A program made the translations under genes and the position numbers. 64,000 bases of DNA, taken from Streptomyces cynarae. Its GTDB lineage: Bacteria > Actinomycetota > Actinomycetes > Streptomycetales > Streptomycetaceae. The stretch is taken from assembly GCF_025642135.1 (NCBI RefSeq), contig NZ_CP106793.1, positions 6,106,001-6,170,000 on the forward strand, read 5' to 3'. Every line of letters begins with the position of its first letter. The stretch's first letter is position 1. This document shows, piece after piece, positions 32,257 through 32,496 of this stretch. A model generated the notes under the pieces. That model saw only the letters and a program-made list of their open reading frames with translations. It did no database searches and was not told the DNA's origin.

Positions 32257-32307
32257 GTGCTCTCGTTCGCCATGATTATTGGCAGCAGGCGCGCCGGTCC
32301 GCAGTGA
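32257..32307 (+). CDS. candidate cimA leader peptide with Ile-Ile codons
   Basis: A short ORF starts at GTG 32257 (MLSFAMIIGSRRAGPQ, 16 codons) or at in-frame ATG 32272 (MIIGSRRAGPQ, 11 codons) and stops at 32307. It contains two consecutive ATT isoleucine codons, a rare choice in this GC-rich sequence. CAGACT (32245-32250), a fair -10, lies six bases before the GTG, so translation may be leaderless. With the T-tailed hairpin downstream it looks like an isoleucine attenuation leader for citramalate synthase. Shorter and less certain than the ilvB leader. Confidence 0.6.
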   Translation: MLSFAMIIGSRRAGPQ

Positions 32308-32362
32308 CCGCCACGTACGACCAGGTACGGGTGGCCACCGTCGTCCTCGACCCGCGCGCAGA

Positions 32363-32388
32363 CCTCTCGCACCCGCGAGAGGTTTTTT
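32363..32388 (+). terminator. cimA attenuator terminator
   Basis: CCTCTCG (32363-32369) pairs with CGAGAGG (32376-32382) around a six-base loop. Six T residues follow (32383-32388). It ends 108 bases before cimA and 56 bases after the candidate leader ORF. A competing upstream hairpin, GCCAC-GTAC...GTAC-GG-GTGGC, lies at about 32310-32335. Confidence 0.8.
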
Positions 32389-32496
32389 CGTTTCCTGGCC
32401 CACCTTCAGCCGGGGGCGGAGCGCGAGGGAGTATGGGGGGACGGTGGAACCGGTCATTCCGGTAAGACCGAGATCCAAAACAGGAGCCTTGAGACC

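Follow-up and report, generated by a model that had tools for sequence, protein, structure and literature searches.

The window is a 64,000-nt stretch of Streptomyces cynarae DNA, and the features of the leader described below lie on its + strand. The regulated gene is cimA at 32497–34107, which encodes citramalate synthase (TIGR00977, 635 bits against a cut-off of 450). CimA opens the threonine-independent route to isoleucine. The genes ilvE (29604–30743) and ilvB (13375–15222) lie upstream of cimA in the window, and an MFS transporter gene upstream of it ends at 32214. From 32214 to 32497 the order is an extended −10 element, six bases, a GTG codon, a 16-codon ORF, a long-range helix (stem A), a terminator, 108 nt and cimA. 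The extended −10 promoter element, TGcCAGACT at 32242–32250, is recognized from its sequence and from the consensus tgTGcca.AcT of 103 distinct relatives; the −10 consensus given for S. lividans in the accessible text of PMC8079986 is TAnnnT. Boxes resembling an extended −10 also precede many distant cimA leaders. Judged from the sequence, the spacing of six bases between element and GTG would put the transcription start at the GTG itself, making the mRNA leaderless. A sigma-70 promoter scan of 32000–32600 calls no site, the TGcCAGACT element included.

The leader ORF (32257–32307) starts with GTG, encodes MLSFAMIIGSRRAGPQ and stops at TGA 32305–32307. The putative regulatory codons, ATT ATT (Ile-Ile), occupy 32275–32280. 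A sequence-only reading of this DNA had described a 16-codon ORF from GTG 32257, or an 11-codon version from an inner ATG at 32272, with two consecutive ATT codons, and all of these are present. It had also called ATT rare here, and of the 84 Ile codons that cimA, ilvB, ilvE and the MFS gene contain together, one is ATT. The two candidate starts behave differently in relatives. All 107 aligned elements, the window's own among them, open with GTG, while the inner position is ATG in 79, ACG in 27 and GTG in one; this set leaves out L018, L023 and L092, the last of which has ATG as its start. GTG is therefore the start used, and the inner ATG, replaced by ACG or GTG in 28 of the 107, is rejected as the true start.

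Stem A pairs its 5′ arm GCGCGCcGGTC (32289–32299), within the last codons of the ORF, with the 3′ arm GACCcGCGCGC (32349–32359). A variable insert with inner hairpins (32300–32348) lies between the arms and is much shorter in many other families. The 3′ arm abuts the intrinsic terminator with no spacer. The terminator at 32360–32388, recognized by scan, fold and covariation, consists of AGACCTCTCGC-accc-GCGAGAGGTTT and a T-run at 32383–32388. The scan gives 11 pairs, six of them G-C, for the stem at 32360–32385, so the 7 bp of the sequence-only reading was too short; the run of six T residues and the 108 nt from there to cimA are as it had described. The fold of 32258–32392 has z = −4.8, and none of 200 shuffles is equally stable. 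Two terminator-like sites are found in 32000–32600 against 0.2 expected; the second has five pairs and lies within the upstream gene. One further pairing on the list of helices for the window, between CTCTCG of the leader and the 3′ arm of the terminator, was rejected, as the codons involved are variable in relatives. The gap of about 108 nt between terminator and cimA (32389–32496) contains blocks conserved in Streptomyces (102 distinct sequences), GggA..at, a G-rich stretch and GtGga(.ccgg), which are possibly a second promoter or a hairpin for translation control.

The element is highly conserved in the genus. The comparison covers cimA upstream regions from 30 genomes, the window's own among them, and 80 named regions, from the best relatives of the window's cimA (79 Streptomyces and one Actinobacteria bacterium); some genomes occur in both sets. 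None of the 110 regions, the window's own counted, lacks the element, and 91 of the elements are distinct. In the 107 elements of one register the first Ile codon is always ATT, and the second is ATT in 88, ATC in 14 and ATG in five. The codon pair is Ile-Ile in 84 of the 91 distinct elements and Ile-Met in seven, and a Met codon in these seven counts against a model of Ile sensing. In 8 of the 91, small indels after the Ile codons place the conserved RNA downstream in the other two frames, and the stop still falls 6 or 9 nt beyond its usual position. None of the 83 unshifted elements has lost the usual TGA, whereas it reads TGG in two of the seven shifted by one. The RNA is thus kept through frame shifts, suggesting that the tail of the peptide is not conserved for itself, whereas the RNA is, and the position of the stop roughly so. 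The helices are near-invariant within Streptomyces, with double changes in 3 of 36 predicted pairs, so covariation there is slight.

R1, a covariance model built from 20 elements, matches 296 of 297 sampled genomes of the family at E ≤ 0.01, including 289 of 289 of good quality and all 17 genera. The sole miss is a genome 71% complete. Four genomes of the family (G064, G079, G096 and G137) have a second, weaker match each. In the window's own genome the cimA element alone scores below E 1, the next match being at 1.4.

Beyond the family, the element is distributed across the class. Our class-wide sample holds 296 genomes, 28 of the window's genus and 268 others, and R1 at E ≤ 0.1 matches 135 of them, all 28 of the genus and 107 of the 268, counts that outside the family include a few weak or partial matches. 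From 98 of these 107 genomes we collected 100 distant loci, leaving out nine genomes with weaker hits and some second hits. A cimA homologue lies downstream in 95 of the 100. In the other five the downstream gene is ilvB (L209, L252), a threonine ammonia-lyase-like gene (L249) or a short ORF without a family match (L221, L235). R2, a broader covariance model from 95 elements, mostly of cimA, matches 199 of the 296 class genomes at E ≤ 0.01. Counted per genome, whatever the position of the match relative to cimA, R2 is found outside the genus in 163 of the 208 genomes that carry a strong cimA match (E ≤ 1e-100) and in 8 of the 60 that lack one. Of the 45 cimA-bearing genomes with no R2 match, 25 belong to one family (f27) with genomes of 1.2–2.2 Mb. 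Many distant elements are just about 85–95 nt long. Outside the family the gap to cimA, measured between a point 8 nt beyond the terminator stem and the predicted start of the gene, is 10 to 118 nt with a median of 43 (76 measured). These comparisons suggest that an isoleucine leader followed by a terminator recurs before cimA in many actinobacterial families. The sequence-only reading had called for an alignment of many cimA upstream regions; the ORF, the Ile codons, the start codon and the paired stems prove conserved, well beyond Streptomyces.

The distant leader peptides differ from each other, for example MTYSLIIS, MTFCLIIP, MLHHGIIIN, MPSQVLIIVRRAG and MFYGLLIIGRRAG (stop codons omitted here and below). 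Nearly all carry two or three Ile codons near their end, just before stem A, and ATT and ATC exchange at these positions. A leader ORF is called in 97 of the 100 distant loci and in none of L196, L209 and L264, by a finder that prefers Ile. Because of this preference two controls were run. When any short ORF near the element is admitted, 86 of 100 loci have an Ile doublet, 33 an Arg doublet and 11 a Leu doublet, and Ile triplets are seen in 28 loci compared with at most four for other residues; the Arg doublets are encoded by part of stem A. When leaders are chosen by the −10 element alone (54 leaders of 8–14 residues), 51 of 54 contain Ile-Ile and 53 have one Ile or more. Ile accounts for 24% of their residues (119, with 77 ATT and 42 ATC). 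The last Ile is separated from the stop by one residue in 33 of them, by two in one and by five in 19, so the stop falls just 5′ or just 3′ of the 5′ arm of stem A. The Ile codons are thus kept with synonymous change while other leader residues vary. The preference for Ile over Leu codons that the sequence-only reading had expected of a cimA leader is seen both in the relatives and in the distant loci. One family (f11) deviates: in five of its six loci (L195, L208, L217, L234 and L236) a single Ile is followed by Thr (RLITH, CITT or CITP at the end of the leader), and the sixth (L193) has Ile-Ile. Other leaders end in IIT. Threonine is the precursor in the alternative route to 2-oxobutyrate. 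By their codons, the Ile-Thr leaders of f11 may sense both amino acids.

Outside the family the two helices covary. The alignment A3 holds 95 elements fitted to the model, with nine weak half-matches left out, and its pair counts lean towards structure because of the fitting. In A3, 96.9% of cells pair, compared with 87.3% in shuffled alignments and 36–63% when the arms are slid. Double changes occur in 23 pairs and 183 cells, compared with 12.9 pairs and 38.7 cells in the shuffles, and the covariation is 0.214 against 0.104, a value that none of 500 shuffles reaches. Stem A and the terminator each contribute. A script finds the terminator in 96 of the 97 distant loci with a leader, making no call in L215. 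In these 96 elements stem A is built from 54 distinct arm pairs; the six-base ends of the arms make 5.7 of 6 pairs with their own partner and 2.9 with the partners of other elements. The gap between stem A and terminator is 0 nt in 72 of the 96 and at most 1 nt in 88, where the script allowed −3 to +6.

A sister attenuator precedes ilvB in the window. R2 adds this element, at 13176–13308 on the + strand (E = 6.3e-5), to the cimA element. Its leader ORF at 13176–13217 encodes MRTRILVLGQRVG, with the codons Ile-Leu-Val-Leu in place of the Ile-Ile at cimA, and the regulated gene differs. The helix GCGCGTCGG/CCGGCGCGC is formed with the last codons, and the terminator follows one nucleotide on. 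In both leaders of the window a helix formed from the last codons, or from bases just past the stop, adjoins the terminator. We read this layout as a mark of the ilvB kind of leader, from the window's ilvB element together with L209 and L252. From sequence, the cimA leader looks like a version of the ilvB architecture that uses Ile codons alone, in keeping with a gene that serves the isoleucine branch.

Folding with an upstream mask in place of the ribosome predicts a further helix in the window element. The predicted antiterminator pairs GGTCCGC (32296–32302) with GACC at 32361–32364 and GCG at 32356–32358; its 3′ side (32356–32364) overlaps both stem A and the terminator. We count the ribosome edge from the first base of the second Ile codon and, unless stated otherwise, end the RNA 2 nt past the helix. 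In the 90 Streptomyces elements (L012 dropped) the predicted antiterminator reaches a probability of at least 0.5 in 80 at edge +13, 89 at +14, 90 at +15, 89 at +16 and 89 at +17. At other edges it does so in 15 (+12), 15 (+11) and eight (+8), and in none from +20 onward; stem A has a mean probability of 0.54 at +12. At +13 the number is 20 of 90 with the RNA ending at the helix, 80 at 2 nt past and 57 at 6 nt past. The change with edge and RNA end is so sharp that the Streptomyces prediction hangs on 1–2 nt. If the ribosome occludes 26 nt with the codon at their centre, the value assumed for M. tuberculosis ilvB1 in the accessible text of PMC13236596, the edge falls at roughly +13 to +14. When the window element is folded at full length, none of the masks tried keeps the terminator from forming, so that antitermination could work only kinetically. 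The modelled Streptomyces antiterminator would thus follow trp-type logic, dependent on 1–2 nt and on kinetics.

The prediction becomes patchy with distance. Another 30 loci were folded; 27 come from other genera of the family, one from a divergent member of the genus and two from other families, and 28 of the 30 have a second Ile. With the ribosome stalled at the second Ile, 11 of these 28 (L277–L279, L283, L284, L288–L292 and L298) give the antiterminator a probability of at least 0.5, whereas others, for example L293, L295–L297 and L299–L302, give values close to zero. In L300 the probability rises to 0.61 when the ribosome sits at the stop, a result that counts against the model at this locus. 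In 96 elements of other families the pairing of the terminator 5′ arm with upstream RNA stays below 0.5 at every Ile stall, the highest value being 0.49 (L263, edge +12). An overlapping antiterminator as a rule for the class finds no support in these elements. Folding of the distant elements gave energies as well as terminator-arm pairing, and in the model the emerging RNA folds with less and less energy the further the mask is shifted from the Ile codons towards the stop (−20.8, −15.6, −7.6 and −2.3 in L211), as expected if the ribosome gates stem A. We infer that stem A could hinder the terminator, which it touches without overlap. It is a tentative suggestion, which we hold with considerable doubt, that across most of the class the ribosome gates a stem A touching the base of the terminator, with no overlapping antiterminator. 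The helix at the RNA exit would then decide whether the terminator closes, the Streptomyces antiterminator would be a later addition, and this distinct, compact form of ribosome-mediated attenuation would be common to cimA and ilvB leaders.

The locus has the parts of a leader attenuator, that is, a short ORF with tandem codons for the product amino acid before a biosynthetic gene and an intrinsic terminator between the ORF and the structural gene. Comparison shows the leader ORF with its Ile codons, stem A and the terminator, as well as their association with cimA and their covariation; the transcription start, translation, sensing and direction of regulation at the leader are what we infer. 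On this evidence we are confident, though short of certain, that the cimA element is an isoleucine-specific, ribosome-mediated transcription attenuator. Very probably the cell senses a shortage of isoleucine by stalling of the ribosome at the leader, as the same leader arrangement recurs in many actinobacterial families. Transcription would start at the leader GTG, and the leaderless ORF would be translated at once. With Ile-tRNA in good supply the ribosome would reach the stop and sit over the 5′ arm that serves stem A (and the antiterminator), and the terminator would halt transcription ahead of cimA. A shortage of Ile-tRNA would stall the ribosome at the Ile codons that directly precede stem A; the RNA downstream would then fold otherwise, the terminator would be weakened and cimA would be transcribed, providing more 2-oxobutyrate for isoleucine.

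The leader may be real and yet matter little, if cimA is transcribed mainly from a second promoter past the terminator and the leader yields a short RNA or a minor control. In Streptomyces the conserved blocks GggA..at and GtGga of the gap could be a −10 element and a start, and the sigma-70 scan, which finds neither a gap promoter nor the leader promoter, does not discriminate. However, the gap has a median of 43 nt and a minimum of 10 nt in other families, too short for a promoter in many of them, and a leader off the cimA mRNA would hardly stay before cimA throughout the class; we regard this reading as unlikely. A regulator protein that binds stem A and controls the terminator, with the ORF not sensed codon by codon, would explain why stem A and the terminator arms are near-invariant in Streptomyces, beyond the needs of a plain helix. 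Codon changes in the S. coelicolor ilvB leader were without effect in earlier work, as cited in the accessible text of PMC1262725, and binding of a regulator was proposed for the LEU element of leuA. Yet outside the family stem A changes with compensation (the 54 arm pairs among 96 elements) while the Ile codons stay, and the invariance in Streptomyces fits equally a double use of the same bases in stem A and antiterminator. We consider protein control very unlikely.

A tRNA-sensing T-box or a small-molecule riboswitch on cimA, with the ORF as a by-product, is the remaining alternative, and we find it extremely improbable. T-box control of actinobacterial ileS is known (PMC1262725, in the part accessible), and GGTGGAaCC between terminator and cimA superficially resembles, by eye, a T-box bulge. 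Against this, Rfam gives no T-box match in 32100–32600 at E up to 10, and the Ile codons are kept with synonymous change among variable neighbors. The 85–95 nt of many distant elements are too short for the stem I of a T-box. In the same interval and at the same threshold Rfam gives nine matches, far below gathering scores and none plausible. Across the whole window five tRNAs alone reach gathering scores; these are tRNA genes in tandem at 58677–59148 on the + strand, known from the Rfam matches only.

Ribosome-mediated attenuation at cimA has several known relatives. Actinobacterial ilvB leaders, those of S. lividans ilvL and M. tuberculosis ilvB1, also combine a short ORF rich in branched-chain amino acid (BCAA) codons with a terminator (PMC8079986 and PMC13236596, accessible text), and the ilvL peptide of S. 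lividans is MRTRILVLGKRVG (PMC8079986). For ilvB1 experiments stand behind attenuation, whereas the cimA leader is known from sequence comparison: according to the accessible part of PMC13236596, the change LVVI to AAAA abolished induction of an ilvB1 reporter, and terminated leader RNA of ilvB1 is abundant. Our likening of the helix–terminator layout to ilvB leaders covers the window copy, L209 and L252. The LEU element likewise places a leader ORF, in which cognate codons stand in a row, ahead of leuA, the gene for a related condensing enzyme. Its marks are the run of Leu codons, a pseudoknot and Shine-Dalgarno pairing; the cimA leader is set apart by its Ile codons and its terminator. The leuL1 leader of S. 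lividans is described in the accessible text of PMC8079986 as lacking a typical terminator, unlike the cimA leader. The trp and leuS attenuators of Streptomyces also have a leader ORF, alternative helices and a terminator with a U-run. For these, antiterminator and terminator hairpins are described in PMC1262725 (accessible text), whereas an overlapping antiterminator is predicted at cimA solely in Streptomyces and part of the family. The T-box of actinobacterial ileS also responds to the supply of isoleucine; it is a tRNA-binding RNA, and the cimA region has no T-box match. The accessible part of PMC1262725, based on 2005 genomes, gives structures for Trp, Cys and Leu/BCAA genes and ileS alone. 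No description of a cimA leader was found in the literature searched, largely without subscription journals and supplements. The best explanation is that the cimA attenuator is new, lying outside both the Rfam matches and this literature, and that it joins the known actinobacterial BCAA leader attenuators.

If this is true, the CimA step in Streptomyces and many other actinobacteria would be under product-specific control, a regulation absent from the literature searched. The cimA leader would also be a possible isoleucine-responsive switch for engineering of Streptomyces strains. One leader architecture would carry different codons according to the gene, Ile at cimA, Ile, Leu and Val at ilvB, and Ile-Thr at one threonine ammonia-lyase-like gene. 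With different codons at different genes, the old doubt whether such leaders sense codons at all becomes testable by comparison and experiment.

Elements also stand before genes other than cimA and ilvB. The one at the threonine ammonia-lyase-like gene (L249, positions 1–792, − strand) is of the same kind, with the leader MQLHLMAIT; models of threonine ammonia-lyase match the first 216 residues of the gene product, with scores under their full-length cut-offs, as the gene is truncated at the end of the locus. Similar elements, whose leaders end in VIIM and RIII, stand before an ORF of ~100 aa in L221 (positions 317–640) and L235 (− strand), respectively. The products of these ORFs, for which Pfam and NCBIfam give no match and hence no support for an ACT-domain identity, by eye look alike and resemble ACT domains.
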